Positions 897-35,748 of a stretch of DNA of 35,748 bases are shown piece after piece (position 1 is the first letter of the stretch; each line of letters begins with the position of its first letter). The stretch is from a virus. The notes beneath the pieces are model-generated. The model was not told the DNA's origin. It saw nothing but the letters and a program-made list of their open reading frames with translations, and made no database searches. The position numbers and the translations under genes are program-made. The stretch is taken from IMG/VR virus record IMGVR_UViG_3300037963_000974, positions 1 through 35,748 of that record. The stretch is one strand, 5' to 3'.

Positions 897-928
897 TTTT
901 TTTTAATTTTTTTTATAAAAAGTTTTTA

Positions 929-954
929 TTTGTATTAAAAAGTTATTATATTTG
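929..954 (+). promoter_or_regulatory. Bacteroidetes-type promoter upstream of 987
   Basis: A -7 box TATATTTG lies at 947-954, with TTTG at 929-932 (14 bp between). The same TTTGTATTAAAAA...TATATTTG layout recurs at 24856-24881. The next gene starts 32 bp downstream behind an A/C-rich leader. Confidence 0.65.
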
Positions 955-986
955 ATATATCAATAACAAACAAAAACAACAACAAA

Positions 987-6114: not shown

Positions 6115-6995
6115 TGGCAACAATAACTAATTTAACAAGTGGTATAGAGATTGACTTCGGAGGATCGGTTACCTATATCAAGCATGGAAATGTAAAGCTC
6201 CTAAAAAGGGGTACTAATATTAATATTTACGATGATTCTGATGATGATGGTAATCAAAGAGGACAGGTTTATATAAGCATTCCTTTTAGTGAGGTTACTA
6301 GTCCTAGTGAGGCTAATATAGATGCTTTATATGCTACTGTAAGAGGTTATATTGATGTTTCTTCTAGTGGTGGTGGTACTGATGCTAATGCAGTACATGT
6401 AAACGTAGGAGGAGAGATAAACGGAATAACTGCTAAGGCTACTCCAACATCTAGCGATATTCTTTTAATAGAGGATGCAGCGGATAGTAACAATAAAAAA
6501 AAGATTACTATTGCAGATTTACCAGCTACAAGCGATGCAAATGCAGTTCATGTAAACGCATCTAATGAGATCACAGCAATAACAGAAAAAACTTCTATAG
6601 ATAATCAGGATGAGTTTATTATTGAGGATAGTGAGGACTCAGGTAATAAAAAGAGTGTTAAGAGAAAAGCTATAATAGATCCTATTGTAAATTCTACAGC
6701 ATCAACAGCTACATTAACAATAGATGCAGATAATACGGATATAGAAACACTAACAGCTCAAAACGGTAGCTGTACAATAGCAGCTCCAACTGGTACTCCT
6801 GTTAATGGTCAAAAGTTGATTATAAGAATTAAGGATGATGGTTCTGCTGCTCCTTTATCATGGAATGCAATTTTTAGAGCAATAGGAGTAACATTACCTA
6901 GTACAACTACCTCAAGTAAGATTATTTATGTTGGATGTATTTATAACGGGGTTGATAGCAAATGGGATGCAATCGCAGTTAAAGAAGAAGCGTAA
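6114..6995 (+). CDS. Tail-fibre-like protein
   Basis: 293 residues. Residues 1-80 are the MATITN domain shared with the preceding gene. Two repeats follow, each with DANAVHVN, a GEI/NEI-ITAK/ITEK strand and an IEDAADSNNKKK/IEDSEDSGNKKS segment. Such repeats are common in phage tail fibres. The C-terminal domain (TIDADNTDIETLTAQNGS, GQKLIIRIKDDGSAAPLSW, KIIYVGCIYN) is a beta-rich module found at fibre ends. It probably forms part of the host-contact apparatus. Confidence 0.75.
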   Translation: MATITNLTSGIEIDFGGSVTYIKHGNVKLLKRGTNINIYDDSDDDGNQRGQVYISIPFSEVTSPSEANIDALYATVRGYIDVSSSGGGTDANAVHVNVGGEINGITAKATPTSSDILLIEDAADSNNKKKITIADLPATSDANAVHVNASNEITAITEKTSIDNQDEFIIEDSEDSGNKKSVKRKAIIDPIVNSTASTATLTIDADNTDIETLTAQNGSCTIAAPTGTPVNGQKLIIRIKDDGSAAPLSWNAIFRAIGVTLPSTTTSSKIIYVGCIYNGVDSKWDAIAVKEEA

Positions 6996-6996
6996 G

Positions 6997-7278
6997 ATGA
7001 TAACAATTATTTCAAAAATAGAATTAGAAGGTACTGATAATCTTAAATATACTGATGTAGGTTATACTGAAGATGTTAGTATTATTAATCAGATTAATGA
7101 GAGCTATGATTCTACATTAGGTAAATTCATAGGAGAGAACAGAACTAAATTAACTTTAGGAGAGGTTTCAATAAGTACATTTTTTGAAACTACTGAATAT
7201 GTAAATGAAGCAGCTACTCAAACAGATAGTATTGATGGTTTAGATTTAGTAGAAATAACTAACATAAATCAGTTATAA
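6997..7278 (+). CDS. Small virion-associated protein, unknown
   Basis: The start is ATG 6997, two bases after the fibre stop; a longer frame beginning at 6928 would overlap the fibre gene and is unlikely. 93 residues: a beta start (MITIISKIELEGTDNLKYTDVGY) and an acidic end. The stop overlaps the next start. No family recognised; position suggests a fibre accessory. Confidence 0.65.
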   Translation: MITIISKIELEGTDNLKYTDVGYTEDVSIINQINESYDSTLGKFIGENRTKLTLGEVSISTFFETTEYVNEAATQTDSIDGLDLVEITNINQL

Positions 7279-7943
7279 TGGCAGCACCAACTAAAGGAAA
7301 TACAACTAACTCAAGCGCTACTCCTGGAGCTAATTTTAAAAACTATACCCATAATCAAAATACTGGTAGTGATGGATTAATAGTGGTACAGCTCTCAATG
7401 ACTAATAACCGTAATTTTACTGGATGTAATTATGGAGGTCAGTCTATGACTCAATTATATCAAATTAATAGAGGTGGTTTAGGTCAAAAAATGGCTTTTT
7501 ATTATTTAGAGAATCCTCCAACAGGAAGCAATACATTAAGAGTTAATTTTAATAATAGTGTTTGGAATGGTGTTAGTGTTCATATTAGAAGTTTTACGGA
7601 TTCAGGAGGAGTAGGAGCATCACAAAGAACGGGAGGACAACCAAGTCCTCATAGTGGAGATATTACAGTAGAAGAGGATTCATTAATTATGATTACTTCG
7701 TGTTGTGTTAATGTTATTCTTACTCAACAGATTCCAACAGGAACTAATAGAACTTTTACTACTCATAATGTTAATAGACAAATAGCAACAGGTGCAATAA
7801 GTGCTAATGCTGGTCATAGTGCTGGTACTATTAGTGTTAGAGCTACTAGTGCAAGTGGTAACTTAACTTTAGATAGGACAGAGATAAAAGGGCTAGGAAG
7901 CTCAGTAGATACAACAGGAGGCGACTTCTTTGCAATAATGTAA
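7278..7943 (+). CDS. Beta-sandwich virion protein, probable fibre component
   Basis: 221 residues rich in G, S, T and N with alternating strands. The pattern DGLIVVQLSMTNNRNFTG, YGGQSMTQLYQ, QKMAFYYLENPPTGSNTL, VSVHIRSFTDSGGVG is typical of a jelly-roll-like domain found in phage and surface proteins of Bacteroidetes. A cysteine pair lies in MITSCCVNV. It is coupled to its neighbours (TAATG at the start, TAATATG at the end). Likely structural, with possible carbohydrate contact; this is inference. Confidence 0.6.
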   Translation: MAAPTKGNTTNSSATPGANFKNYTHNQNTGSDGLIVVQLSMTNNRNFTGCNYGGQSMTQLYQINRGGLGQKMAFYYLENPPTGSNTLRVNFNNSVWNGVSVHIRSFTDSGGVGASQRTGGQPSPHSGDITVEEDSLIMITSCCVNVILTQQIPTGTNRTFTTHNVNRQIATGAISANAGHSAGTISVRATSASGNLTLDRTEIKGLGSSVDTTGGDFFAIM

Positions 7944-7944
7944 T

Positions 7945-8427
7945 ATGGCAGTATTTAAAGATATAATAGATGAATTTAAGACCGTTGCAGATGCTTTTAC
8001 TTCGGTTAATTACTTTGTATATGACAGGGTAAGTAGAGTTAATGGCACTTTACAAAATAAAGCCTATCCAATGATATTAATTGATTCTACTCCTAATTTT
8101 AATAGAGGTGCAAATAATAATGTTTATTTACCAAGAGGTAAGCAGTTTACGTTTAACATCTTTTGTTATGGTGACTATAATACAGCTGAAAGAAATACTA
8201 AAAGCTTGCAACAGAAGCAAGGCGAAATAGATAACATTTTAGATCAGTACATAGCAGAAATCATTAACCGTAATATTGATGGCTCTAATGGTTTTAGTAT
8301 AGTTAATAATACTGCTTTAAGTGGTTTTTTAGCTCATGATGTTCATAATGATAAATTAGTACAATCTACTTACACTATGACTATTGAGCTTGATAGCAAT
8401 TGCACTTTAGGCTCATTTAGTTACTAA
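7945..8427 (+). CDS. Probable tail terminator protein
   Basis: 160 residues. An N-terminal helix (MAVFKDIIDEFKTVADAF), then KAYPMILIDSTPNF and a beta segment QFTFNIFCYGDYN, a long helix and a C-terminal strand with YTMTIELDSNC. This alpha/beta layout and the place just before a gp10-like gene match tail terminator (gpU-like) proteins, which cap the tail tube. The call rests on position and fold pattern, not on a diagnostic motif. Confidence 0.5.
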   Translation: MAVFKDIIDEFKTVADAFTSVNYFVYDRVSRVNGTLQNKAYPMILIDSTPNFNRGANNNVYLPRGKQFTFNIFCYGDYNTAERNTKSLQQKQGEIDNILDQYIAEIINRNIDGSNGFSIVNNTALSGFLAHDVHNDKLVQSTYTMTIELDSNCTLGSFSY

Positions 8428-12390: not shown

Positions 12391-15249
12391 ATGGCAGAAA
12401 AGGTAATAGCGATAAAGGTTGACTTAAAAGGTACTGAAGCACAACAAAAAAAGTTAGCAAGGCTAGAAACGGAGGTTAAAAAACTAAGTTTAAGAAGGAC
12501 TGAATTAAATAAAGCTCTTAAAAAAGGAACTATATCTCTTAAGCAATACGGTAAAGAAATAGCAGAGGTTAACACTAAGTTAAAAGCTAACAGGAGAGCT
12601 ATGTTGGTGGCTAGGGAACAGATACTAGGCATGGACTCTTTCACAAAAAAACTAGGTAAAAGTTTTAACAGATTAGGAACTGCTATTAGTGGTGCTTTTG
12701 TTGGTTTATTTGCTATCCAAAAGGTATTTGATATATTTAGAGAAGGTGTCGAAGTAAATAAGCAATTCGAGAAGTCTATTAGTGAATTAAGTGCTATCAC
12801 TGGGCAATCAGGAGAGGAATTAGATAAGCTTTCAGATGCAGCCCGTAGAATGGGGAAAGAAACAACTAAAAGCGCTGTTCAAGTTGCCGAAGCCTTTACT
12901 GTTGTAGGTTCAAAACGACCTGAATTGTTAAAAAATGCGGATGCTTTAATCGAAGTAACAGAAGCAGCTATTACGTTAAGCGAAGCTGCAGGTATTGAGG
13001 TTCCCGAAGCTGCTCAAGCTGTAACTTTAGCGATGAATCAGTTTGGTGATTCTGCGGGTGGTGCTGCAAAAATAATAGACGTTTTAGCTGCTGCTTCTGT
13101 TGAAGGTTCTGTATTAATTCCACAGTTAGCAGAAGAATTGAGTAAGTTTGGTGGTATTGCTGAAAAATCTGGTTTAACCGTTGCACAAGCTGCTGCTTCT
13201 GTTGAAGTTGTAGGTAAAACAGTACAAGAGAGTGGAACAAAAATTAGAAACATATTAATCAAATTAGAATCAGGAGTTGAAAAATTTAGACCTAGTGTGG
13301 TTGGTTTGAATACTGCTCTTGATAATCTAGCTAAAGATGGATTTAACCAAATAGCACCACTAGCAAAAACCTTTGGAAAACAAAACGCAGAAGCTGCTTT
13401 GTCTATTATACAAAACAGAGCAGAAGTAGAAAGGTTAACAAGTGCTTTAGATAAAAACGGAATAGCTCAACAAATGGCTATAACAATGACTGATAACTTA
13501 GACGGGGCACAAAAAAGGTTAGGGAGTGCTTTTGATGAGTTATTTTTAACTATTGGCGACGCTTCTGAAGGTGGTGCTTTAACTAATTTAATTGACAATA
13601 TAGCCGAAGGAATTAACGGTTTTTCTGAATGGGCTAATAGTACAGGTTTTTTCACTGAAATATTTAAGATATTAACAAAAGCTTTTAGATTAGCAACTTT
13701 ACCGATTAGATTAGTATATGAGAATTTAAAAGCTTTAACAAGTGGTTTTACTGACTCAGGTGATGAAATAAGCACAACTACAAAAGTTTTAAGAGTTTTC
13801 GGCGCTACTATTGAAACTGTTTTAGGTGGTATTAAAACATTTGTTAAAAATATTGTAAACGGTTTTAGTGGTATTGGTCAAGTTATAAAAGCAGCTTTAT
13901 CTGGTGAGTTTACAAAAATACCTGACATAGTAAAAAACACTTTTAATAAGAGTGCTGATAATATAGTCAAGTTTAAAAATGACACTGTAAAATCATTTAA
14001 AGACGCTGTTAACGAATCTGTTATACAAGCAGAAAGGCAAACTAACAAAGAAAAGTTAGAACTCGATAAAAGAATTAAACAGATTAAGGACGCTAATAAG
14101 CAGAAGGAAAAAGAAGAAAAAGCTTTAGCTATTAAATTAACTAAAGAAGAAGAGGCTTTAGCTAAGAAAAAAGAGCAAGCTACTAAGAACTTAATTAAAA
14201 AAACTAGAAAACTAAAAGAGCAGGCTTTAATATTAGAGATTGAAGATAAAAGAGAGGCAGAAGATAAAAAACTGGAATTAGCAGAAGCGTCTGCTAAAAG
14301 AGAGGTAGAAGCGTCTATAGCTAGTGCAGAAGCTAAAGGGGAGGCTTTAAAGGCTATTGAGGCTAAATTCCAAGCACAAAGGGAGTCTATTGCTAGAACT
14401 AGAGCGAAAGAGGATAAGAAAATAGCCGATAAAGAAGCAGAAAAAGAAAAGGCTGAAAGTTTAAAAAAGCAAGAAGAAAAAGATGCTTTTAAGAAACAAG
14501 TACAAGCCGAAGCAGTCCAATTAGCCGAACAAACAGCAAACGCTTTAGTAGATGTTGCTAATAGGAGAGCAGATAGAGAAAAACAGCTAGAACTTGACAA
14601 CTTAAACGCAAAGCTTGAGAATGGTTTAATATCACAAGAGCAATTTGAATCAGAAAGGTTAAAGATTGAAAAAAAGGCTTTTGAGAAAAAGAAAAAGTTA
14701 GAATTAGCAGGAATAGCAATTAGTTTAGCTAGTGAGATTGCTAGTATCAACATGAATGCTGCAGCTAACCCTGCAAACGCTTTTACTTTTGGTGGTGCAG
14801 GTGTATCGCAAGCGGCTGTATTAACTGCTCTAGCTGTTGGTAGGTCTGCTGTGCAAGCGGGTGTTATAGCGTCACAGCGATTCGCTCAAGGTGGATTTAC
14901 TGGTGAAGGTTATGGTTCTCCCGATAGCACTGGCTTCAAGCAGGCGGGAATCGTGCATGAAGGTGAGTATGTAGTACCTAAACATGTATTAGAATCTCAA
15001 AGAGGTGGACAATTAGTAGGAGCTTTAGAATCTATGAGAATGAATAAACCTACTCCATTATCTAATATTGGATTTGCTAACGGTGGATTCACCAGCGGAA
15101 ATAATTTAGATTTATCGGACATGGAAAGCAGAATTAGTAATGCTGTTATATCATCAATAGGAGCTATTAAAGTTCAAAATGTTGCTACTGATACGACTAC
15201 AGAAGCGGTAAAAGTGAATAATATCATGAGTGAGGCTACTTTTGGATAG
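12391..15249 (+). CDS. Tail tape measure protein
   Basis: 952 residues. An N-terminal coiled coil (residues 10-75) precedes a TP901-type tape measure core (about 125-310: FEKSISELSAITGQSGEEL, DAARRMGKETTKSAVQVAEA, EVPEAAQAVTLAMNQFG, GLTVAQAAASVEVVGKTVQE). Residues 545-780 are a long Lys/Glu/Ala coiled coil. The C-terminus has the usual GG-rich segment (AQGGFTGEGYGSPDSTG) and HEGEYVVPKHV. By the 1.5 angstrom per residue rule the tail would be near 140 nm. Bases about 12800-14080 use more GC-ending codons than the rest, hinting at a mosaic core. A terminator follows. Confidence 0.92.
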   Translation: MAEKVIAIKVDLKGTEAQQKKLARLETEVKKLSLRRTELNKALKKGTISLKQYGKEIAEVNTKLKANRRAMLVAREQILGMDSFTKKLGKSFNRLGTAISGAFVGLFAIQKVFDIFREGVEVNKQFEKSISELSAITGQSGEELDKLSDAARRMGKETTKSAVQVAEAFTVVGSKRPELLKNADALIEVTEAAITLSEAAGIEVPEAAQAVTLAMNQFGDSAGGAAKIIDVLAAASVEGSVLIPQLAEELSKFGGIAEKSGLTVAQAAASVEVVGKTVQESGTKIRNILIKLESGVEKFRPSVVGLNTALDNLAKDGFNQIAPLAKTFGKQNAEAALSIIQNRAEVERLTSALDKNGIAQQMAITMTDNLDGAQKRLGSAFDELFLTIGDASEGGALTNLIDNIAEGINGFSEWANSTGFFTEIFKILTKAFRLATLPIRLVYENLKALTSGFTDSGDEISTTTKVLRVFGATIETVLGGIKTFVKNIVNGFSGIGQVIKAALSGEFTKIPDIVKNTFNKSADNIVKFKNDTVKSFKDAVNESVIQAERQTNKEKLELDKRIKQIKDANKQKEKEEKALAIKLTKEEEALAKKKEQATKNLIKKTRKLKEQALILEIEDKREAEDKKLELAEASAKREVEASIASAEAKGEALKAIEAKFQAQRESIARTRAKEDKKIADKEAEKEKAESLKKQEEKDAFKKQVQAEAVQLAEQTANALVDVANRRADREKQLELDNLNAKLENGLISQEQFESERLKIEKKAFEKKKKLELAGIAISLASEIASINMNAAANPANAFTFGGAGVSQAAVLTALAVGRSAVQAGVIASQRFAQGGFTGEGYGSPDSTGFKQAGIVHEGEYVVPKHVLESQRGGQLVGALESMRMNKPTPLSNIGFANGGFTSGNNLDLSDMESRISNAVISSIGAIKVQNVATDTTTEAVKVNNIMSEATFG

Positions 15250-15274: not shown

Positions 15275-15308
15275 AAAGGGTATTACTTAAAAGTTTTACC
15301 CTTTTTTT
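15275..15308 (+). terminator. Rho-independent terminator after the tape measure gene
   Basis: AAAGGGTA (15275-15282) pairs with TACCCTTT (15297-15304) across a 14-base loop, ending in a T-run to 15308. It closes the tail operon. Confidence 0.8.
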
Positions 15309-15363
15309 ATTGATTTTTTTTACTAAAATTATCTAAGTAATTGATTAGTAAATAATTAACGTG

Positions 15364-15445
15364 TTAAGACTAGTTTAAGAGGTGTTTAACAGGTGTTAAA
15401 GACTAGTTAAAGAGTAGTTAAAGAGTAGTTAAAGACCTGTTTAAC
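15364..15445. repeat. 11-bp tandem iterons (intergenic copy)
   Basis: Seven consecutive units at near-exact 11-bp spacing: TTAAGACTAG (15364, 10 bp), TTTAAGAGGTG (15374), TTTAACAGGTG (15385), TTAAAGACTAG (15396), TTAAAGAGTAG (15407 and 15418) and TTAAAGACCTG (15429), then a partial TTTAAC (15440). The 11-bp period is close to one helical turn, as expected for a protein-binding array. The same iterons recur inside the initiator gene at 30042-30085. Candidate origin or operator array. Confidence 0.8.
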
Positions 15446-15451
15446 TAAATA

Positions 15452-15480
15452 TAGAATAGAATAGAATAGAAGATATTATA
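15452..15480. repeat. AGAAT repeat block sharing a 20-bp element with the initiator gene
   Basis: AGAAT-type repeats follow the iterons. The 20 bp at 15459-15478 (gaatagaatagaagatatta) are identical to 30110-30129 inside the initiator gene, also just after iterons. AT-rich and a plausible duplex-opening element. The rest of the 261-bp gap holds the terminator, the iterons and a -7 box; no gene is seen. Confidence 0.7.
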
Positions 15481-15497
15481 AGAGAGTTAAATTTTTT

Positions 15498-15510: not shown

Positions 15511-15744
15511 ATGTGGTTAACTAATCTATTCGGGAGAGCAAAAAATATTAATTCTGATTTAGCTACTGAACTACAAAAAAAAGTTAGATTGAGGTTATGT
15601 AATGTTTGTCCAGAAAAAAGGAATGATTTTATTTTTTTATATTTCTTTAAAAAAAAAGGAGTGTCTCAGTGCTCGATTTGTAAATGTGCTTTGTTAGATA
15701 AAATTTTATGGAATGATGAGAAATGTCCTTTAGAAAAATGGTAG
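15511..15744 (+). CDS. Small zinc-ribbon protein
   Basis: 77 residues with two cysteine knuckles: CNVC at about 30, then CSIC followed by C within CSICKCALLDKILW, and a final CPLEKW. This C-x2-C...C-x2-C-x-C...C arrangement is common in small phage zinc-ribbon proteins beside head genes. Probably structural or regulatory with one bound zinc; the partner is unknown. It overlaps the next gene by 7-22 bp. Confidence 0.7.
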   Translation: MWLTNLFGRAKNINSDLATELQKKVRLRLCNVCPEKRNDFIFLYFFKKKGVSQCSICKCALLDKILWNDEKCPLEKW

Positions 15745-24823: not shown

Positions 24824-24849
24824 ATGTCTAAAAATATTTTTTTTAAAAC

Positions 24850-24881
24850 TTGCTATTTGTATTAAAAAAGTATTATATTTG
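24850..24881 (+). promoter_or_regulatory. Early promoter
   Basis: -7 box TATATTTG at 24874-24881. TTG lies at 24850-24852 (21-bp spacer) and also TTTG at 24856-24859 (14-bp spacer), the latter in the repeated TTTGTATTAAAAA context. A leader of AAACAAACAAAACAAA precedes the ATG at 24911. Confidence 0.75.
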
Positions 24882-24910
24882 TAATATACAAACAAACAAA
24901 ACAAATAGAC

Positions 24911-25978: not shown

Positions 25979-26006
25979 TTGTATTAAAATATTATTATTA
26001 TATTTG
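25979..26006 (+). promoter_or_regulatory. Early promoter
   Basis: TTG (25979-25981), 17-bp spacer, TATATTTG (25999-26006), in the repeated TTGTATTAAAA context. A/C-rich leader precedes ATG 26036. Confidence 0.75.
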
Positions 26007-26035
26007 TAATATACAAACACAAAAAACAAAACAAA

Positions 26036-26278
26036 ATGAGAACAACAGAAGAAGTAACAGTATTATTAGGAGAAACATCAGAAAGAAGTTTTACAGTTAA
26101 AGTAACTTGTGATTATGATCATGGAGATTATTATAACCCACCATCAGCTGATTATTATTTAGACAGCGAGATCCAGGAGAACGGTTTAGAGTGTAATGAG
26201 TTAATTGAGAGATACGAAAGTATTTTTAAAGTTGATTTTGAAGCTTTAGCAATAGAAGAATTTAAGGATTTATATTAA
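26036..26278 (+). CDS. Small acidic protein, unknown
   Basis: 80 residues, strongly acidic, with VTCDYDHGDYYNPPSADYYL and an acidic helix at the end (ERYESIFKVDFEALAIEEF). The N-terminal half is beta-like. It is first behind its promoter and probably begins the recombination/replication operon. Acidic early proteins can mimic DNA or bind host factors, but nothing here proves that. Confidence 0.7.
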   Translation: MRTTEEVTVLLGETSERSFTVKVTCDYDHGDYYNPPSADYYLDSEIQENGLECNELIERYESIFKVDFEALAIEEFKDLY

Positions 26279-27437: not shown

Positions 27438-27868
27438 TGGATAGAAAAGAATTAGAAGAGTTAACTAAAGGAATAGAGGGTATATTAGCCCTCTATTCTG
27501 GTTTAGGTAAGGACTTTAAAGATATAGATAGATTGATAGTAGCTAAAAGAAAGTTATCAGGTTATTTGTATAGATTTAGTGTTTTAGTAGGAGATGCTTT
27601 AGAGCAGTATAATGTTAATTATGCAAATAGAAAGAGCTTAACAGCTGAAAAGATACTTAACTATGTTAGTTCTGGTGATGCTCAATTTAAAGCAACTATG
27701 AAAGCAGAAGTAGACTTAAAAGATGTTAGACTATTAGAGGCAAGTTCTGAGGCTGTTTATAGACGTATTAAGAGCCAATATGATAGTTTAAGAGATACTT
27801 TAAATAGTATTCAACAAGATATAAGTACATTAAAAATGGAGCTTAGTGATGCAAAAATACATCATTAA
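27437..27868 (+). CDS. Helical recombination-region protein, unknown
   Basis: 143 residues, helical: YLYRFSVLVGDALEQYNVNY, NYVSSGDAQFKATMKAEVDL, RRIKSQYDSLRDTLNSIQQD. Proteins with this plan sit between annealing and resolvase genes in other phages; the role is not known. Bases 27471-27498 near the start form a perfect 10-bp inverted repeat within the coding sequence. It overlaps the RusA gene by 23 bp. Confidence 0.65.
   Translation: MDRKELEELTKGIEGILALYSGLGKDFKDIDRLIVAKRKLSGYLYRFSVLVGDALEQYNVNYANRKSLTAEKILNYVSSGDAQFKATMKAEVDLKDVRLLEASSEAVYRRIKSQYDSLRDTLNSIQQDISTLKMELSDAKIHH
27471..27498 (+). repeat. Perfect 10-bp inverted repeat inside a coding region
   Basis: GAATAGAGGG (27471-27480) and CCCTCTATTC (27489-27498) with loop TATATTAG, in codons 12-21 of the surrounding gene. 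The GAGGG...TTA...CCCTC core resembles the two repeated terminators but has no T-run. Confidence 0.55.
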
Positions 27869-28205
27869 AGGTAATACACCATCTAAGAGTAATTGCTATA
27901 AGGTAATTAGATTAGGTAATAGATGCTCTTTAGGTAAGCAAAAGCACCTTAAAAGCTATGAGAACAGTTTTAAGCTACAGATGTTAAATTATAAGTATAA
28001 TCTTATAGAAAGTGAGTTTAAGTTTATTATAGATGTTTATTATCCATCTAGAAGGAGTGATTTAGATAATAGTTTAAAAGTTGTCCTAGACTGTTTACAA
28101 AAAGCTCAAGTTATAAAGAATGATAATAAATGTATTGAGATAATTGCTAAGAAACATTTAGACAAAATAGATCCTAGAATAGAATTTAGTTTAATACCTA
28201 TTTAA
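27846..28205 (+). CDS. rusA: RusA-like Holliday junction resolvase
   Basis: 119 residues. The RusA signature is clear: a strand IIDVYYPSRR, then SDLDNSLKVVLDCLQ with Asp72 and Asp74, and VIKNDNKCIEI with Asp93, the acidic residues that bind metal in RusA. The start is MMQ at 27846 or the second Met at 27849. It resolves branched phage DNA before packaging. A terminator follows. Confidence 0.85.
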   Translation: MMQKYIIKGNTPSKSNCYKVIRLGNRCSLGKQKHLKSYENSFKLQMLNYKYNLIESEFKFIIDVYYPSRRSDLDNSLKVVLDCLQKAQVIKNDNKCIEIIAKKHLDKIDPRIEFSLIPI

Positions 28206-28225
28206 CACCAAGTACCACCACTAAC

Positions 28226-28259
28226 AAACTCAAGAATTAATTTTTTTGAGTTTTTTTTT
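28226..28259 (+). terminator. Rho-independent terminator after rusA
   Basis: AAACTCAA (28226-28233) pairs with TTGAGTTT (28246-28253), with T-runs in the loop and after the stem to 28259. Confidence 0.75.
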
Positions 28260-28270
28260 GCTTAATAGTT

Positions 28271-28298
28271 TTGTATTAAAAAATTATTATTATATTTG
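28271..28298 (+). promoter_or_regulatory. Early promoter of the replication block
   Basis: TTG (28271-28273), 17-bp spacer, TATATTTG (28291-28298), again with TTGTATTAAAA. It sits right after a terminator and opens the DnaA-like/initiator operon. Confidence 0.78.
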
Positions 28299-28330
28299 GT
28301 TTATAAACAAACTTTTAAACAACAAACATT

Positions 28331-28528
28331 ATGGAAAAAGAACAAATTAAAAACTATTTAGAAACTCTTCATGCGGAGTATCTTGATATAGCTAATGAGT
28401 CTATAAATAATTATAATAATTCTGGTAAAGATGAGCAAGTAATGAAAGACTTTTATTTAAAAGAGGCTACAAAATATGCTAACAAAGCAGAAGCACTATT
28501 AGACGTAATTAATTTTATAAACAATTAA
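28331..28528 (+). CDS. Small helical protein, unknown
   Basis: 65 residues, charged helices (EQIKNYLETLHAEYLDIANE, FYLKEATKYANKAEALLDV). First gene behind the promoter at 28298, with an AAACAACAAAC leader. No motif recognised. Confidence 0.65.
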   Translation: MEKEQIKNYLETLHAEYLDIANESINNYNNSGKDEQVMKDFYLKEATKYANKAEALLDVINFINN

Positions 28529-28895: not shown

Positions 28896-29342
28896 ATGAA
28901 CTACAATGAAAGAGATTTACACAAAGTTTATAGCCTCGCTAAGCGAGGTTTTAACTTTAAGGAGAGCTTAGAAGCTTTAAAAACAGATAGGATAAAAGCA
29001 TGTGATGGAGATAAATTGCAGATACTTGTTAATAGTATTTGTAATTATTATCATGTAACCATAGAGGAGTTGACAGGTAGGACTAGATTTGGTTATATTG
29101 TTGAAGCTCGTAGGATGTACTGCTATTTAGCAAGAGTATTAACACCTAAGAGCCTCAAGTCTATAGGCAAGAAAATATCAAGAGATCATGCAACTGTACT
29201 ACACCAATTTAAACAGGTTAGCGGATATGTAGATGTTAATGATAGGACTATAATATCTGATATTGATGATGTTACTTTAGATTATTATAAGAATTTAAAG
29301 ATACATGAATTAGAAACTAATAAAGAGTTAATAGATGTATGA
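28896..29342 (+). CDS. DnaA domain IV-like DNA-binding protein (first copy)
   Basis: 148 residues without any AAA+ ATPase motif. Residues 48-107 match the DnaA DNA-binding domain: NYYHVTIEELTGRTRFGYIV, then EARRMYCYLARVLTPKSLKS, and the signature SRDHATVLHQF (95-105), close to the DnaA GRDHATV motif that reads DnaA boxes. It may bind host or phage origin DNA without ATP control. The beginning of its message contains a strong hairpin plus T-run (28934-28952). It overlaps the second copy by 8 bp. Confidence 0.8.
   Translation: MNYNERDLHKVYSLAKRGFNFKESLEALKTDRIKACDGDKLQILVNSICNYYHVTIEELTGRTRFGYIVEARRMYCYLARVLTPKSLKSIGKKISRDHATVLHQFKQVSGYVDVNDRTIISDIDDVTLDYYKNLKIHELETNKELIDV
28934..28952 (+). 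promoter_or_regulatory. Attenuator-like hairpin inside the DnaA-like gene
   Basis: CCTCGC (28934-28939), loop TAA, GCGAGG (28943-28948), then TTTT, within the first 19 codons. GC-rich stem plus T-run has the form of an intrinsic terminator and could limit expression of the initiation genes. Confidence 0.5.
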
Positions 29343-29718
29343 GTTTAAGGATATTAAAACAGCAATAGAGTTAACTAAATTAGGATTATCAGAAAAAGAG
29401 ATTAAAAAGTTTTTTAACTTTGAAAAGAAAACTTATACTAATCCTAATGATATTTTATACATCATTTGTGATTATTTTAAGGTACATCCTAAGATGGTTA
29501 CTAGCGATTCTAGAGATCCATTACATGTATTAGTTAGAAAGTATGTTAGTTACTTTGCATGTAAAAAATTTAAGATTATACAGCAAGAAGTCGCTTTTAT
29601 TTTAAAAAGAGATAGAACAGGTTTAGTACATTATAATAAATGTATTCAAGACTGGATAGATATTAAGGATAAAGAAACTTTAGAGCATATTGAAAACATT
29701 AAAAAACTACTTACATAA
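29335..29718 (+). CDS. DnaA domain IV-like DNA-binding protein (second, divergent copy)
   Basis: 127 residues with the same plan as its neighbour: ICDYFKVHPKMVTSDSRDPL (44-63), LVRKYVSYFACKKFKIIQQE, then ILKRDRTGLVHYNK (89-102), where RDRTGLVHY takes the place of the DnaA RDHATVLH signature. The changed signature suggests a different target sequence. Also lacks an ATPase domain. Its stop shares one base with the initiator start. Confidence 0.7.
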   Translation: MYEFKDIKTAIELTKLGLSEKEIKKFFNFEKKTYTNPNDILYIICDYFKVHPKMVTSDSRDPLHVLVRKYVSYFACKKFKIIQQEVAFILKRDRTGLVHYNKCIQDWIDIKDKETLEHIENIKKLLT

Positions 29719-30374
29719 TGGCAAAAGAGATACCATATTTTAAATTTTTTATAGGAGAATGGGCTAACGGAGATATAACATGTGAAAGTTATGAAGCTCA
29801 GGGAATATTTATAAATATCTGCTCTATCTACTGGGCAAAATTAGGAAAGTTAACAGAAAGATACATTAGAAAAAAGTTTAAATCTGATGAGGCTATTAAT
29901 GAGCTTATAGAGTCTAATATTATTAAGATAGAAGATGGAAAAGTAATAATTAACTTTTTAGATGAACAATTACAAGAGGATCAATTATTAAGAAGAATTA
30001 AAAGTGCTGGAGGTAAAAAGTCAGCTGAAAATCGTAAAAAATCTAAGACTAGTTTAACACCTGTTAAAGACCAGTTAAACACCTCTTCAAGTAATAATAG
30101 AATAGAAGAGAATAGAATAGAAGATATTAAGAGCGATAAAGTTTTAAAAACTTTTGATATAACTAGTTTTGAGAATTTAGAGATGAGGTTAAAAACATCA
30201 AAAGCAGAAATTAAAAAAAAGTTAGAAGAGTTTTTAGAGATTGAAAAAATTACTCCTACATTTAAGAACAAACAAATAGGAGAAATACTAAAACACTTTA
30301 GAAACTGGCTTAACTATAATAAGCCTAAAGAAATAACAAACAAACAAACTAAAGCTCCTTGGATAGATAAATGA
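29718..30374 (+). CDS. Replication initiator-like protein (DUF4373 / Lin1244-like N-terminus) with internal iterons
   Basis: 218 residues. Residues 3-90 (IPYFKFFIGEWANGDITCES, QGIFINICSIYWAKLGKLTE, NELIESNIIKIEDGKVIINF) form the winged-helix type domain seen in phage replisome organisers. A low-complexity linker follows (TSLTPVKDQLNTSSSNNRIE, ENRIEDIK), whose DNA contains four 11-bp iterons and an AGAAT block. The C-terminal helices could contact the helicase. It probably binds the iterons and loads the ATPase encoded next, with which it overlaps by 4 bp. Role inferred from family and context. Confidence 0.75.
   Translation: MAKEIPYFKFFIGEWANGDITCESYEAQGIFINICSIYWAKLGKLTERYIRKKFKSDEAINELIESNIIKIEDGKVIINFLDEQLQEDQLLRRIKSAGGKKSAENRKKSKTSLTPVKDQLNTSSSNNRIEENRIEDIKSDKVLKTFDITSFENLEMRLKTSKAEIKKKLEEFLEIEKITPTFKNKQIGEILKHFRNWLNYNKPKEITNKQTKAPWIDK
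30042..30085. repeat. 11-bp iterons inside the initiator gene
   Basis: Four units in exact 11-bp register: TCTAAGACTAG (30042), TTTAACACCTG (30053), TTAAAGACCAG (30064) and TTAAACACCTC (30075), then a partial TTCAAG. They match the intergenic array at 15364-15445, although 11 is not a multiple of 3, so the repeat is selected as DNA and not as protein. Confidence 0.8.
30098..30133. repeat. AGAAT block with the 20-bp element shared with 15459-15478
   Basis: Bases 30110-30129 are identical to 15459-15478, and the same distance class separates it from the iterons. AT-rich; a likely unwinding element of an origin. Confidence 0.7.
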
Positions 30375-31366
30375 TGAAAAAAATTTACACCAAGCCCTAT
30401 GATGAGTATTTAGGGTTAGAAGATATTAGATTAGGTAAAATAGAGCAAGGATTAAAGATAGGAGTTGATAAGTTTGATAATCATGTAAGATGGAAGCAAG
30501 GACAGTTTAACATGATAAATGGGCATGATAATGTAGGTAAGACAGATGTATTATTATGGTACTTTGTTTGTATGGCTAAACTGCATAATAAAAAGCTTTT
30601 AATATATTCATCTGAGAATACTATAAGAAGTCAAGTATTTAAAATATTTAACTTTTGGACAGGTAAAAGAATGGATAAAGACTTTCTTAAAGATGATGCT
30701 GGATTCCAACATACCCTCCATGAGATTACAGATTGCTTTGAGTTTATACCTAATAATAAAAGATACTCTGCTTATGATATTATTGAGTTAGCATCTAAGC
30801 AACATCATGACGGGCTGTTAGTTGATCCTTTTAATAGTTTAATGGTTGAAACTGGAAATAAGCATCAAGAGGATTATGATATTTGTGCTAATCTAAGAAT
30901 ATTTGCAAGTGAACAAAATACTAATGTATTTGTTAATGCTCACTTAGTTACTCAAGCTGCTAGAAACAGATACCCAAAAGAGCATATTTATGAGGGACAT
31001 TTAGCAGCGCCAGAAAAAGCAGATACTGAGGGAGGTCAAAAGTTTGCGAATAGGGCTGATGACTTTTGGACTATTCACAGAATGACTCAACATCCTGAAA
31101 GATGGAACTTAGGAGAGCTACATGTAAGAAAGGTTAAAGAAACTATTACAGGTGGAGGAGTAACTCCAAGAGATGCACCGATAGAGCTGAGATGGAGTAA
31201 CCATTGTAAATACTTTATTGATAACATTAATCCATTAGATAAAACTTATTCTGATGTAGGTCATACTGAGATGGATATACTAGGAAAGAAAGGCATAATA
31301 AGGAATAAACAGCATAAAGGAATGAATAATATGAGTTACGGAATAGATGACGATTTACCATTTTAA
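30371..31366 (+). CDS. RecA/DnaB-type ATPase, probable replicative helicase
   Basis: 331 residues. Walker A GHDNVGKT (51-58), a strand-helix with LLIYSSENT (77-84), Walker B HDGLLVDPFNSL with Asp152, and a sensor-like NAHLVTQAA (about 198-206) define a RecA-fold ATPase. The position after the initiator suggests a DnaB-like helicase made of the ATPase domain only, or a related RecA-family motor. The end YGIDDDLPF copies the SSB-type hook. The start is Met 30371 or 30374. Confidence 0.8.
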   Translation: MMKKIYTKPYDEYLGLEDIRLGKIEQGLKIGVDKFDNHVRWKQGQFNMINGHDNVGKTDVLLWYFVCMAKLHNKKLLIYSSENTIRSQVFKIFNFWTGKRMDKDFLKDDAGFQHTLHEITDCFEFIPNNKRYSAYDIIELASKQHHDGLLVDPFNSLMVETGNKHQEDYDICANLRIFASEQNTNVFVNAHLVTQAARNRYPKEHIYEGHLAAPEKADTEGGQKFANRADDFWTIHRMTQHPERWNLGELHVRKVKETITGGGVTPRDAPIELRWSNHCKYFIDNINPLDKTYSDVGHTEMDILGKKGIIRNKQHKGMNNMSYGIDDDLPF

Positions 31367-31368
31367 AT

Positions 31369-31725
31369 ATGATAAGCAAGAAAGTAAAATTAACAGATAG
31401 ACCTATTTACAATTTATTTAAGCAAGATAAAACTGTTTTGAGTGGTAGTATTAGAAGAGAGGTAAAAACTTCTTTAATAGGCACTGATATAGCTCTAAGA
31501 AAAGTTTACAAAGCTTATGAAGATACTAACAGGTTAAATGATCCATTAGCACAAATAGTAAAAGCTGGTATTGATGGAGTAGCAGATTTAGAGTTTTTTA
31601 GTAATGCTATTTATGATGAAATAGAGGCTCTAAAAGATTATACACAAAGATTAAAAGACCAGAATAAACAACTAAGAGAGCTTAATTATGAATTAAAATT
31701 AAATAATCAACAATTAAAATTTTAA
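31369..31725 (+). CDS. Coiled-coil protein of the replication block, unknown
   Basis: 118 residues. A basic N-terminal part (SKKVKLTDRPIYNLFKQDKT) and a C-terminal coiled coil (AIYDEIEALKDYTQRLKDQN, KQLRELNYELKLNNQQLKF). Two bases separate it from the ATPase stop. A helicase partner or oligomerising regulator is possible, without direct evidence. Confidence 0.65.
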   Translation: MISKKVKLTDRPIYNLFKQDKTVLSGSIRREVKTSLIGTDIALRKVYKAYEDTNRLNDPLAQIVKAGIDGVADLEFFSNAIYDEIEALKDYTQRLKDQNKQLRELNYELKLNNQQLKF

Positions 31726-31770
31726 TATTAATTTTTTATTATTATCATTGTATAAACAAACAGATAAATT

Positions 31771-31974
31771 ATGAATCAGAACAAAAGGCTGCTCACCTAT
31801 TTAGAGCAAGGTCAAACAATTAACCCTTTAAAAGCATGGAATGAGCTAGGTATCTATAGACTGGCTTCCAGAGTTTGCGACCTTAGAAAACAGGGTATAG
31901 AGATTAAAGATAGATGGTTAGATGTGCCTAATCGTTATGGAGAATTTGTAAAAGTTAAACAGTATTATTTATAA
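31771..31974 (+). CDS. Small HTH protein
   Basis: 67 residues: LLTYLEQGQTINPLKAWNEL, GIYRLASRVCDLRKQGIEIK, then a beta wing (WLDVPNRYGEFVKVKQYYL). This is the compact winged-helix domain common in phages (HTH_55-like), whose GIYRLASR-DLRKQG core is well kept. It probably regulates transcription or binds DNA ends. Upstream is a short AT-rich gap with TATCATTG, only a weak -7 box. Confidence 0.75.
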   Translation: MNQNKRLLTYLEQGQTINPLKAWNELGIYRLASRVCDLRKQGIEIKDRWLDVPNRYGEFVKVKQYYL

Positions 31975-31989
31975 TTAAAACATAGAAAA

Positions 31990-33396
31990 ATGGAAAAGTT
32001 AAAAAGAACAAAACAAGCAAAATTATTTAATGACAAAATTGAGTTAATAACATTAGATTCTGTAATAGGATCAGGATATGAGGAGGATGTTGCAAAATTG
32101 GCTATTGAAGATAAAATAGCATACAGAGCAGCCCGTAAAAATATGCAAATACATTCAGCTATTGTATTAAAAATAAATGAGGAGTTTGCTGGGTTTTTTA
32201 CATTTGAAATTAATCATGATGCTAAAGAATTTTGTTTACTTCAATCAGCAATGTATCCCCGTTTTAAAGATGTTGAGATATATTCTATGATGGTAGATAA
32301 AATTATATCACATAATACTTTTGGTTATCCAATGATAATGACAGTTAGTAAAAAACACGATTTGGAAAAGCCATCAGTATTTAAGGATTTAGGATTTAAA
32401 ACTAACATAGATAAGAATGATTTTATTTATATGGTTTATGGTGAGTTATCACAAGTAAGATTAAAATTATTAGCACATACTGCAATGACTAATCTATGGA
32501 AGTCAACATCTGGCTTATGGTTAAAAAATAAAAGAGAATGGAATAATAAAATAGAAGAAGCTGGCAAAAAACATAATGTATTAAATCCAAAATTTGCGAG
32601 TAGAGAGGGATGTTGGCAAGGCTCTGCGGGTTTTTCAAATGTTGTTTTATCAAAAAATGAAATAAAAAACGGTAAAATAGTACATAACAATAAAAAGTCA
32701 TTAAATGGTAATGCTTCTGTATTAGATCCTACTGCATGTGAAATTATTTTAAGAATGTGTATGCCTAAAAATGGTGTTAGGGTTTATAATCCTTTTGGTG
32801 GTGGTGTTCAAATGGGCTTTATAACTGGCTCTCATGATTTAGAATATTTAGCTACTGATATTAGACAGAATCAAGTAGATGCTAATAATAAAATATGTTC
32901 AGATTTTTATCGTACAAGATGGATTAAAGCAGATAGCTCAACTTATAAGCCTAAAGAAAAATTTGATTTAGTTTTTAGTTGCCCTCCGTATTATAGGGTT
33001 GAAAAATATATTGATTATGATGGATTACCTCCAGAGGGCGAGATAAATCATTTAGGAAGCTATGAAGAGTTTAGAGATACGCTTTTTGAGGGTTATAAAA
33101 AAGCTATAGAAGCAATGAATGATAATACTTTTTTTGTAGTTATGACTGGTGATAGTAGAGGTAAAGATGGTGCTTATTATGGATGTGAGGCTGAACATGA
33201 ATTATTTTTTAAAGAGCAAGGCCTGCATATCTATAATAAAATAATTTATTTAGAAAGTGAGTTTACTAGATTTAGTCAAGCAAAAAAAACATTACATAAT
33301 AGAAAGTTTCCTAAAGCAGATCAAAAAATTTATATGTTTTATAAAGGAGATATGAGTAAAATAAAAGAGTTATACCCTAATATTGGAAGAATGTGA
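31990..33396 (+). CDS. GNAT-like domain fused to a DNA methyltransferase
   Basis: 468 residues. Residues 15-150 look like a GNAT acyltransferase fold: SAIVLKINEEFAGFFTFEIN, FCLLQSAMYPRFKDVEIYSM and FKDLGFKT. From about 200 a DNA methyltransferase follows: SAM-binding motif I VYNPFGGGVQ (265-274), an acidic strand ATDIRQNQVDANN (288-300), and catalytic motif IV SCPPYY (330-335), as in N4-cytosine or N6-adenine enzymes. Phage Mu Mom is a GNAT-fold DNA modifier, so a two-step base modification is conceivable. GNAT call is from pattern only. No restriction enzyme lies beside it. Confidence 0.75.
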   Translation: MEKLKRTKQAKLFNDKIELITLDSVIGSGYEEDVAKLAIEDKIAYRAARKNMQIHSAIVLKINEEFAGFFTFEINHDAKEFCLLQSAMYPRFKDVEIYSMMVDKIISHNTFGYPMIMTVSKKHDLEKPSVFKDLGFKTNIDKNDFIYMVYGELSQVRLKLLAHTAMTNLWKSTSGLWLKNKREWNNKIEEAGKKHNVLNPKFASREGCWQGSAGFSNVVLSKNEIKNGKIVHNNKKSLNGNASVLDPTACEIILRMCMPKNGVRVYNPFGGGVQMGFITGSHDLEYLATDIRQNQVDANNKICSDFYRTRWIKADSSTYKPKEKFDLVFSCPPYYRVEKYIDYDGLPPEGEINHLGSYEEFRDTLFEGYKKAIEAMNDNTFFVVMTGDSRGKDGAYYGCEAEHELFFKEQGLHIYNKIIYLESEFTRFSQAKKTLHNRKFPKADQKIYMFYKGDMSKIKELYPNIGRM

Positions 33397-34187
33397 GAAA
33401 GTATAAAGATGAAATATCCCTCTCTAATAATGAGAGGGGTATATGGGATTTAGATACTATTAAAGGTTGTAAGTCAGGTATGGCTTTAAATAAAAAAGGT
33501 TGTTACGGTGATTGTTATGCTTTTAAAACTGCAAATAGATATAAAATAGATTTTAGTACATCAGTAGAACGAAAGTTTATAAATGAAGCTCATAGATTAC
33601 AAATTATAAGACAGATAGAAAAGATAGATATGCCTTTTATTAGAATTGGATGTAGTGGAGATCCTTCAGAAAATTGGAATCATACAATTAATATTATAAG
33701 TGAATTAAAAAGGCAAAAACAGTTATCATTATTTGATATATCATCTAATAAAAAAATAGTTATAATTACTAGGCATTGGAATACCTTAACAGATTTACAA
33801 CTAAAAGAAATTAGTAAATATAATTTAGTTATAAATACATCTATTTCAGCTTTAGATAGTGATGATTTAATACAAAAATGTTTAAAAGAATATCATAGAA
33901 TTAAAAAATATTGTAAATCTATTTTAAGGGTTGTTACATGTGATTTTAATGAAGATAATTTAGAGGGTAAAAGGAGGGCAGAAATACAGCGTAAATTATT
34001 AAAAAATAATAATATAATTGATACTGTTTTTAGACCATCTAGTAAAAATGAGTTTTTAGTTAAAGGAGTTATAAAAGCTAAAAAAATGTCATTTATGAAA
34101 TCAAAAGCCCTTTTAAGTAAATACAATAAAAAAACATTTGTAGGTAAGTGTAATAAATGTATTGAGCAATGTGGATTAAATGTGTAA
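33393..34187 (+). CDS. Cysteine-cluster protein, possibly radical-SAM-like
   Basis: 264 residues, starting at GTG 33393 that overlaps the methyltransferase stop (GTGA). The N-terminus has Cys26 and C-x3-C at 37-41 (GCYGDCYAFKTANRY). A strand FIRIGCSGDPSENW (82-95) and KIVIITRHWN suggest a TIM-barrel-like enzyme. The C-terminus has CNKCIEQC (253-260). Similar layouts occur in radical SAM and DUF5131-like phage proteins, but the spacing is not the canonical C-x3-C-x2-C. Coupling implies joint action with the methyltransferase. A strong hairpin lies within its first codons. Confidence 0.6.
   Translation: MRKYKDEISLSNNERGIWDLDTIKGCKSGMALNKKGCYGDCYAFKTANRYKIDFSTSVERKFINEAHRLQIIRQIEKIDMPFIRIGCSGDPSENWNHTINIISELKRQKQLSLFDISSNKKIVIITRHWNTLTDLQLKEISKYNLVINTSISALDSDDLIQKCLKEYHRIKKYCKSILRVVTCDFNEDNLEGKRRAEIQRKLLKNNNIIDTVFRPSSKNEFLVKGVIKAKKMSFMKSKALLSKYNKKTFVGKCNKCIEQCGLNV
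33418..33438 (+). repeat. Inverted repeat in the 5' coding region
   Basis: CCCTCTC (33418-33424) pairs with GAGAGGG (33432-33438), extended by ATA/TAT after a one-base bulge. No T-run; may affect translation after the overlapping stop. Confidence 0.5.
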
Positions 34188-34467
34188 AATGAAAGAGCTA
34201 ATAGAAGCAAATTATAAAAGTATAGTAGATAGGGGTTTTATTACTCCTACTACTACCCTTTTTGAGTTTTTAGATAAAATAGATGAGGAGGTTTATGAGC
34301 TTAATGATGAAGCTTTAAAGCCTAGAGATAACAGCAACTTACCAGAAGAGTTAGCTGATGTTATAATGGTATGTTTAAACATGGCTAATCATTATAATAT
34401 AGACATAGAACAAGAGATAAAAAACAAGATTGAAATAAACAAACAAAGAGCAAAAAATGGAAAATAG
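34180..34467 (+). CDS. MazG-like nucleotide pyrophosphohydrolase
   Basis: 95 residues: TTLFEFLDKIDEEVYELNDE, LPEELADVIMVCLNMANHYN, IDIEQEIKNKIEINKQRAK. The EExxE and EELADV helices and the final K-x2-N-x2-R match the all-alpha NTP pyrophosphohydrolase (MazG/dUTPase) superfamily. It may clean the nucleotide pool or remove a modified-base precursor made by the neighbouring genes. The start is 34180 (overlap of 8) or the Met at 34189. Confidence 0.75.
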   Translation: MCKMKELIEANYKSIVDRGFITPTTTLFEFLDKIDEEVYELNDEALKPRDNSNLPEELADVIMVCLNMANHYNIDIEQEIKNKIEINKQRAKNGK

Positions 34468-34705
34468 ATTAATATTAGAAAGTAATATAATGTTAGCTTT
34501 ATTAAAGGCTACTATAGAGCAATCTGAATACCTTAGAGGAGAGCTAAAACAAAAGCCTAAACAAGTATTTAATAACTGGTCAAACTTAGGGCATATGCTT
34601 TTAGATGAGCTAGAAAAAAAGAATATTGCTAATGAAGATTATCTAAATCAATTAACGGATGTTATTCATGATGTTTTACATGAGATTAGAAAACAAGATG
34701 ATTAA
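34457..34705 (+). CDS. Small helical protein, unknown
   Basis: 82 residues, helical: ESNIMLALLKATIEQSEYLR, LGHMLLDELEKKNIANEDYL, TDVIHDVLHEIRKQDD. Overlaps the MazG-like gene by 11 bp. Its stop TAA is followed by C and GTTA (TAACGTTA, 34703-34710), resembling the collapsed edges of a cassette junction. Confidence 0.65.
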   Translation: MENRLILESNIMLALLKATIEQSEYLRGELKQKPKQVFNNWSNLGHMLLDELEKKNIANEDYLNQLTDVIHDVLHEIRKQDD

Positions 34706-34928
34706 CGTTAAAAATAAATACTGTATGAAAGAGCAGATTATAAAGATAATAGAAAATAGCAGTCCAGAGTTGGCAGCGGAAGAAATATTGGATTTATTTG
34801 GTGTTATCAAACATCGTGAACTGTTGATTGATTTTTACAAATCTTTTTATTCCGATGTCGGTTGGTTAACACATAAAGAGGACGCTATTGAATACATTGA
34901 TAAATATTTAAAATCAATTAATAGTTGA
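34698..34928 (+). CDS. Cassette-like small protein, unknown
   Basis: Up to 76 residues from ATG 34698; a start at 34725 (MKEQIIKIIENSS) gives 67 and avoids the overlap, and is my preference. Helical with FGVIKHRELLIDFYKSFYSD and a C-terminal EYIDKYLKSINS. Codon use (CTG, TTG, GCG, CGT, CCG, GTC) differs from the phage core, a sign of recent import. Its stop TGA is followed at once by TAAC, the left edge of palindrome S3. Confidence 0.6.
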   Translation: MINVKNKYCMKEQIIKIIENSSPELAAEEILDLFGVIKHRELLIDFYKSFYSDVGWLTHKEDAIEYIDKYLKSINS

Positions 34929-34974
34929 TAACGCTAAATGTAAAAAGCGTTTTAATGATTTTTAAATAATGTTA
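34929..34974. repeat. attC-like element S3
   Basis: TAAC (34929-34932) and GTTA (34971-34974) bound a 46-bp AT-rich stretch with an inner hairpin AACGCT (34930-34935)/AGCGTT (34946-34951). Weaker symmetry than S1, S2 and S4. Confidence 0.4.
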
Positions 34975-34987
34975 TAAACTTTTAATT

Positions 34988-35143
34988 ATGAATTGGATAA
35001 CTATAAAGTTGATGCAATACCAACTAAAAAAAGTACAAAAGAAACAAGACAAAGAAGAGTATGACTTGGTAGCAAGAGCATATAATGAATGTATTAAGAC
35101 ATATAAAAATGCTATAATGTTTCTTGAAGCAAACAGTAAATAA
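34988..35143 (+). CDS. 51-residue cassette-like protein, unknown
   Basis: MNWITIKLMQYQLKKVQKKQ, then DKEEYDLVARAYNECIKTYK and NAIMFLEANSK: a charged helical hairpin. It lies alone between S3 and S4. The S3 right edge GTTATAA (34971-34977) is complementary to TTATAAT (35153-35159) just after its stop at six of seven positions, as expected for a cassette. Confidence 0.55.
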   Translation: MNWITIKLMQYQLKKVQKKQDKEEYDLVARAYNECIKTYKNAIMFLEANSK

Positions 35144-35155
35144 TTTTATTGTTTA

Positions 35156-35219
35156 TAATGACCCTATAAAAAAGCTTGAGCGACTGCCGACTTTAGGAGG
35201 TTGTTTTTATAGTTTGTTA
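35156..35219. repeat. attC-like palindrome S4
   Basis: TAAT (35156-35159), GACC, then CTATAAAAA (35164-35172) pairing perfectly with TTTTTATAG (35204-35212), ending GTTA (35216-35219). Inside the left stem, AGCTTGAGCGACTG (35173-35186) is identical to S2. The 35144-35287 gap holds only this and a GTTCAT/ATGAAC hairpin near 35235-35270. Confidence 0.65.
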
Positions 35220-35230
35220 ATTTTAGTATA
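35213..35230. repeat. 18-bp direct repeat, copy 1
   Basis: TTTGTTAATTTTAGTATA, covering the right edge of S4; repeated exactly at 35517-35534. Confidence 0.7.
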
Positions 35231-35287
35231 ATGGTGTTCATCCGTAATAGTTGTTTAGTGACAATGAACGCTTAAAAATATTGAACA

Positions 35288-35512
35288 ATGAGAAATAAAG
35301 CAAAAGTAGAAATTATTGAATTAATTAAATTATTTGGTAAAACAGCAACAGGAGAAGTAAAAACAGATAAACATGTAAATAAAAGACATGGTAGGAGATG
35401 TAATAAATGCGATGAAAAAATAAAACATAATGATGAATGTTATACGCAATCTTACAAACTAAAAAACACAAAACAAATATTTCAAGTTTCCTTTTGTATT
35501 AATTGCTTATAA
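35288..35512 (+). CDS. Cassette-like zinc-finger mini protein
   Basis: 74 residues. A helical basic start (RNKAKVEIIELIKLFGKTA), then RRCNKCDEKIKHNDECYTQS and FCINCL: two C-x2-C pairs (plus a middle Cys) form a probable zinc ribbon, as in HNH-like or HNH-free treble-clef proteins. No HNH catalytic motif is complete. The stop overlaps TAAC (35510-35513), followed by a shortened TAAC-TGTTTT-GTTA junction and the 18-bp repeat. Confidence 0.6.
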   Translation: MRNKAKVEIIELIKLFGKTATGEVKTDKHVNKRHGRRCNKCDEKIKHNDECYTQSYKLKNTKQIFQVSFCINCL

Positions 35513-35516
35513 CTGT

Positions 35517-35534
35517 TTTGTTAATTTTAGTATA
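35517..35534. repeat. 18-bp direct repeat, copy 2
   Basis: Exact copy of 35213-35230. The two copies bracket the 35288-35512 gene, one on each side, like the ends of an inserted unit. Confidence 0.7.
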
Positions 35535-35562
35535 TTAGTATAAATAGTAAATTAATATAATA

Positions 35563-35748
35563 ATGATTGAAATAAGCTTATTAAAAGAGGGTAACTGGTT
35601 TAAACATAAAAACTGTACCTATGAAATAATGAGCTTCGATTACGTATTTACAACAGCTAAAAAGATTAATAATGATGGTATCAAACATTACTTTCTAAAT
35701 AGTATTAAAGTAGAAAAAATGTATAAAGATCACTATCAAAAGAATAAC
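35563..35748 (+). CDS. Unknown protein, 3' end cut by window
   Basis: ATG 35563 opens a frame that runs 62 codons to the window end without a stop: MIEISLLKEGNWFKHKNCTY, EIMSFDYVFTTAKKINNDGI, KHYFLNSIKVEKMYKDHYQK. Beta-rich start, helical end; no family recognised. Codon use is like the phage core again. Confidence 0.55.
   Translation, partial: MIEISLLKEGNWFKHKNCTYEIMSFDYVFTTAKKINNDGIKHYFLNSIKVEKMYKDHYQKNN

Follow-up and report, generated by a model that had tools for sequence, protein, structure and literature searches.

The genome of an uncultured virus of marine bacteria, of which a stretch of 35,748 nucleotides (the window) was analysed in full, contains the same two-part array at two sites: array 1 is located between genes, in the late region, while array 2 lies in frame within the linker of a putative replication initiator gene, 14.7 kb away. 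The pair probably represents a two-site replication system resembling oriL and oriR of the Bacillus phage SPP1. This reading is favoured because the window matches the SPP1 anatomy, including predicted unstable A-rich blocks and a RusA-like resolvase. That one initiator reads both arrays, as had been proposed in the initial annotation, is strongly supported, although indirectly, by the matched variation of array and initiator types among other phages. The relevant features are the following:

15277..15309, + strand: hairpin resembling a terminator, located after the tape-measure gene and before array 1 (RNA fold -13.6 kcal/mol, z -3.2)
15361..15445, + strand: iterons of array 1, 7-8 GTTNAANANNN units of 11 bp, non-coding, SPP1 oriR-like
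15446..15486, + strand: purine-rich ATAGA/GATATTA block of array 1, DUE-like (TRF, predicted low stability)
15511..15744, + strand: ORF of 77 aa (orf15511), the first head-cluster gene, just 3′ of array 1
27846..28205, + strand: RusA-like Holliday junction resolvase (PF05866, E 6e-10; PHROG 140)
28896..29342, + strand: stand-alone DnaA domain IV protein (Bac_DnaA_C, E 8e-19)
29335..29718, + strand: second DnaA domain IV-like protein (Bac_DnaA_C, E 1.5e-6, below the curated cut-off)
29718..30374, + strand: putative replication initiator gene, 218 aa (PHROG 29280, PHROG 9327, gene neighbours)
30042..30088, + strand: iterons of array 2, about 4 units within the part of the gene encoding the linker, SPP1 oriL-like
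30089..30129, + strand: AATAG block of array 2, encoding NNRIEENRIEDI, with the 21-bp identity to array 1
30371..31366, + strand: DnaB/primase-helicase-like ATPase (PHROG 18375, E 8e-36; DnaB_C, E 1e-3)

The initial description of a two-part array present at both loci on the same strand was confirmed. In array 1, TRF identified a period of 11 at 15366-15435 (6.4 copies, 83% matches), and in its block a period-5 ATAGA repeat at 15451-15471 (4.2 copies, 100%); in array 2, a period of 11/22 at 30045-30091 is followed by a period of 5 at 30096-30124. The same-strand alignment of the two arrays ranks first among the non-local self-matches of the window (E 2.2e-14); with the linker alone as query, the region 15399-15480 was retrieved with E 1.6e-16, the best of 20 codon shuffles giving 1.1e-4. 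Moreover, three tandem GTTNAANANNN units have five exact matches in the window, all within the two arrays, and none in 100 dinucleotide shuffles. Some details of the description required correction: seven units had been counted in array 1, where seven to eight are visible; 11-bp units occur at both loci, but array 2 contains only about four, some of which are reverse-complement to those of array 1 (16 bp exact, 15385-15400 versus 30053-30068); and the identical element is indeed present, but it is 21 bp long (AGAATAGAATAGAAGATATTA) instead of 20. The block of array 1 is predicted to be among the least-stable ~1% of the 40-60 bp windows, and that of array 2 among the least-stable 2-5%.

Array 1 (15361-15486) is non-coding, stop codons interrupting each of the three + frames. 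The tape-measure gene is located on its 5′ side and orf15511 on its 3′ side; the region 3′ of the array comprises three small ORFs and a Clp-type head protease, followed by the capsid and portal region. No match to an RNA element was found in Rfam, and the junction has no DNA similarity to isolated phages. The array is flanked by the terminator-like hairpin and by a TATATTTG element ahead of orf15511, and other intergenic arrays are similarly found at gene-cluster boundaries; these positions would suit an operator, through which the initiator would control the downstream head-gene promoter and tie replication to late expression. An operator, however, would not need the A-rich block, the TATATTTG element is not above chance, the frequency of TANNTTTG in the window is at chance level, and in the GYxKG clade described below the upstream array is directly adjacent to the start codon and no promoter is visible in the interval; we regard this function as improbable. 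Elements of the form TTGTATTAAAAA...TATATTTG recur ahead of genes elsewhere in the window (905-975, 24832-24901, 25979-26053 and 28225-28345) and are probably ordinary promoters.

The ORF containing array 2 shows similarity to PHROG 29280, of unknown function (E 6e-20), and weakly to PHROG 9327, a primosomal protein (E 1e-5); its gene context suggests that it encodes the initiator. Its structure prediction is poor (pLDDT 48), and the order of helices and strands gives only hints of a winged helix. Directly 5′ of this gene, two adjacent stand-alone DnaA domain IV-like proteins are encoded (28896-29718); neither for them nor for the initiator were direct relatives found in IMG/VR. MCP relatives were absent from GTDB genomes. 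The end of the window is joined to its start by another contig (L032; regions compared, 30983-35748 and 1-2734), with about 0.95 kb between them, thus the genome appears to be circular or permuted, with a size of about 36.7 kb. The GC skew has a constant sign along the window, with no switch at array 1 or array 2, and is uninformative as an origin signal.

In SPP1, oriL is embedded in the initiator gene 38, and oriR is found 12-13 kb away, within the late region and between transcription signals; each of them consists of repeats and an AT-rich unwinding element. G38P binds both sites: replication begins at oriL in the theta mode, and it was proposed that the protein, when bound to oriR, stalls the fork, leading to the sigma mode (PMC6316719, PMC3485210). 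The window resembles this organization in having a repeat array in the coding sequence of its putative initiator (30042-30129), a second, non-coding array of the same repeats in the late region and a predicted AT-rich unwinding element beside each of them, with a separation of 14.7 kb. The likeness is one of layout; unlike SPP1, the neighbouring genes code for the DnaA domain IV proteins and the DnaB-like ATPase, any correspondence of which to G39P and G40P is tentative. The two origins, or the switch between modes, which had been put forward in the initial annotation would correspond to the published oriL/oriR model (PMC6316719, PMC3485210).

By analogy with this model, we infer the following course of events in the window virus. 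The N-terminal domain of the initiator would bind the 11-bp repeats of array 2 in its own gene, and the bound protein would open the neighbouring, easily melted A-rich block, so that theta replication may begin there with the adjoining DnaB-like ATPase. The initiator would also bind the matching two-part module at array 1, between the late-region transcription units; this site could, as at SPP1 oriR, act as a second (late) origin, as a protein barrier stalling the fork, or as both. The stalled fork would then allow the switch to recombination-dependent synthesis of concatemers.

Phage lambda, which had been cited as a precedent, has a single embedded origin. Within the coding sequence of its initiator gene O lie iterons together with an A/T-rich region (PMC4488673, PMC5043065; for Stx phages, PMC7466680), and array 2 shares this organization. 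The window, however, has a second copy 14.7 kb away, and SPP1 is the closer precedent. The P1 oriL also lies within an initiator gene, repL, and a matched second array is not described in the portion of that source considered here (PMC9948254).

A different possibility is that array 1 is a control site, which the initiator would pair with array 2 by handcuffing or looping, which would titrate it, or which would serve as a cis helper. Distant second arrays of the same initiator-binding repeats occur in P1 (oriR/incA), F (inc loci) and P4 (ori/crr); the inc loci of P1 and F set initiation frequency, while P4 crr is a required cis helper. Such precedents among plasmid and satellite replicons, the higher number of repeats in array 1 than in array 2, and the existence of a clade with three arrays, which suits extra control sites, are all in agreement with this function. 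To our knowledge, however, the control arrays of P1, F and P4 do not include a complete unwinding block placed in this order, whereas array 1 and the other intergenic copies retain the A-rich block in that order, which pure titration would not require. In addition, the junction array of one phage (G001, see below) has no gene-embedded partner that could be found. A control site is therefore rather unlikely.

The array pairing was also examined in the relatives of the window virus. Capsid relatives were fetched and the tape-measure/orf15511 junction was read in each of them; orf15511 is conserved in those that retain the junction. In many close relatives, which have other initiator types, the junction is only about 22 bp long and a second copy is absent, indicating that the lineage can do without array 1. 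Other relatives contain junction arrays of different types: GTTCAAG in L052-L054; GTTNAA, with reversed units and an unchanged block, in L074 and L075; GTTGAACGGGT in L078; AAGGGGCTT with GATAAA in the L043 group, L064 and L073; AATAACAA types in L070 and L071; and CACATCT in L077, where a minus-strand DnaD-like helicase-loader gene accompanies the iterons at the tape-measure/head junction (6963-8190). The initiators encoded beside the conserved ATPase have differing N-terminal domains, each with its own linker repeats and A-rich stretch. The closest relative of the window in the replication genes is L009 (ATPase 86%, DnaA-like proteins 62% and 59%, initiator C-terminus 74%); its initiator has a swapped N-domain (MAKRFTD type), and its linker repeats belong to the AAGCCCCTT/GATAAA type, the one found at the junctions of the L043 group. 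L009 and L043 are two non-overlapping contigs of one metagenome sample, so that the match is linked by sample and not by contig. A pattern scan for the AAGCCCCTT/GATAAA type returned 38 stretches: those in coding DNA fall within the linkers of MAKRFTD-type initiators, and those in non-coding DNA are at junctions of the window group and in L195. Among relatives, the arrays, for which a search was suggested in the initial annotation, are found as matched sets.

Further evidence comes from a clade defined by GYxKGSQ/GLQ linkers (GYxKG clade), whose loci were picked by the N-domain protein alone; a set picked earlier by DNA motif was dropped from the synonymous test. Among codon pairs for the same residue, identity in the linker is 0.85-0.98, and elsewhere mostly 0.45-0.8, which shows that the embedded array of this clade is constrained as DNA. 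A second array is present ahead of a holin-like gene in 20 of the 22 loci with enough upstream DNA; in the long contigs (29-36 kb), the second array was found in all eight and a third one in six. The linker arrays vary together with the upstream ones (partial Mantel r 0.66, p 0.0002), and the DNA of the N-domain does not follow them (r 0.08); the direct self-pairing test within the clade, taken alone, is weak (p 0.08). The third array lies next to, and just upstream of, the gene that precedes a terminase large subunit-like gene. A link to packaging, which had been suggested for the window, was not substantiated there, the terminase fragment (81-896) being far from array 1. The idea of antipodal origins was rejected, as in the GYxKG clade no more than about 4-7 kb separate the arrays from the initiator gene.

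These data also bear on whether array 1 is simply a duplicate, without function, of the origin embedded in the gene, produced by recent copying or recombination. The patchy presence among relatives would be in line with such an origin, and repeated copying could yield the matching of types; however, array 1 exceeds the coding copy in length and regularity, both parts are kept in non-coding copies at fixed positions in several unrelated lineages, and a decayed copy is not expected to co-vary beyond relatedness. An inert duplicate is accordingly very improbable.

Paired arrays are also found in G021, an unrelated phage of 45.7 kb that includes L195, where both are contained in one contig: its own MAKRFTD-type initiator is 22 kb from the L195 array and has the same repeats (E 1.8e-19). 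An independent scan with the window repeat pattern matched mostly linkers of initiator-like genes (DUF1376, Lin1244) in unrelated phages, indicating that arrays embedded in genes are, in themselves, widespread. Pairing is not universal, as no convincing second array was found in long contigs with MAKRFTD-type initiators (G027, G029, G040, G043 and G044) or in G041; nor was a second array present in nine isolated phages whose initiators are related or analogous. In G001 the initiator is absent from its usual place, and the junction contains a minus-strand DnaD-like helicase-loader gene beside CACATCT repeats; TRF detected no other array of this type in G001. This case suggests that the junction can host an origin on its own.

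In favour of the SPP1-like pair we counted the match between L009 and L043, the G021 pair, the co-variation in the GYxKG clade, the codon constraint in the linker and the junction array of G001. Against it we counted the patchy distribution among relatives, the nine isolated phages, the flat GC skew, the p value of the self-pairing test, and the fact that the L009/L043 match spans two contigs of one sample.

With somewhat less than even confidence, we propose that many uncultured phages carry a portable, type-matched set of initiator and origins, in which a swap of the N-domain replaces every array; some clades would have three arrays, the outer two flanking the early region, and dispersed initiator sites may represent a general and diverse form of control of the replication mode. 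The two-origin layout of SPP1 has seldom been described elsewhere, and here it is seen in several phage groups that are unrelated, with arrays that match the swappable domains of the initiators. This natural comparison could be used to test why such phages keep a second origin, and it supplies many candidate pairs of initiator and site with differing specificity.

Other repeat arrangements were noticed among the sequences examined. An iteron-like GTTCAACA array with an A-rich stretch lies in frame in a head maturation protease gene (PHROG 976, E 2e-56) in L146 (5051-6256), and also in L151, L163 and L167. Inside the initiator gene of Flavobacterium phage morran9-1 (L005), 24 bp are exactly duplicated (14708-14731 and 14888-14911). 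Finally, a 38-kb contig not otherwise related (L150) contains seven near-perfect, non-coding 11-bp TAGTTAAACAG repeats at 511-584.
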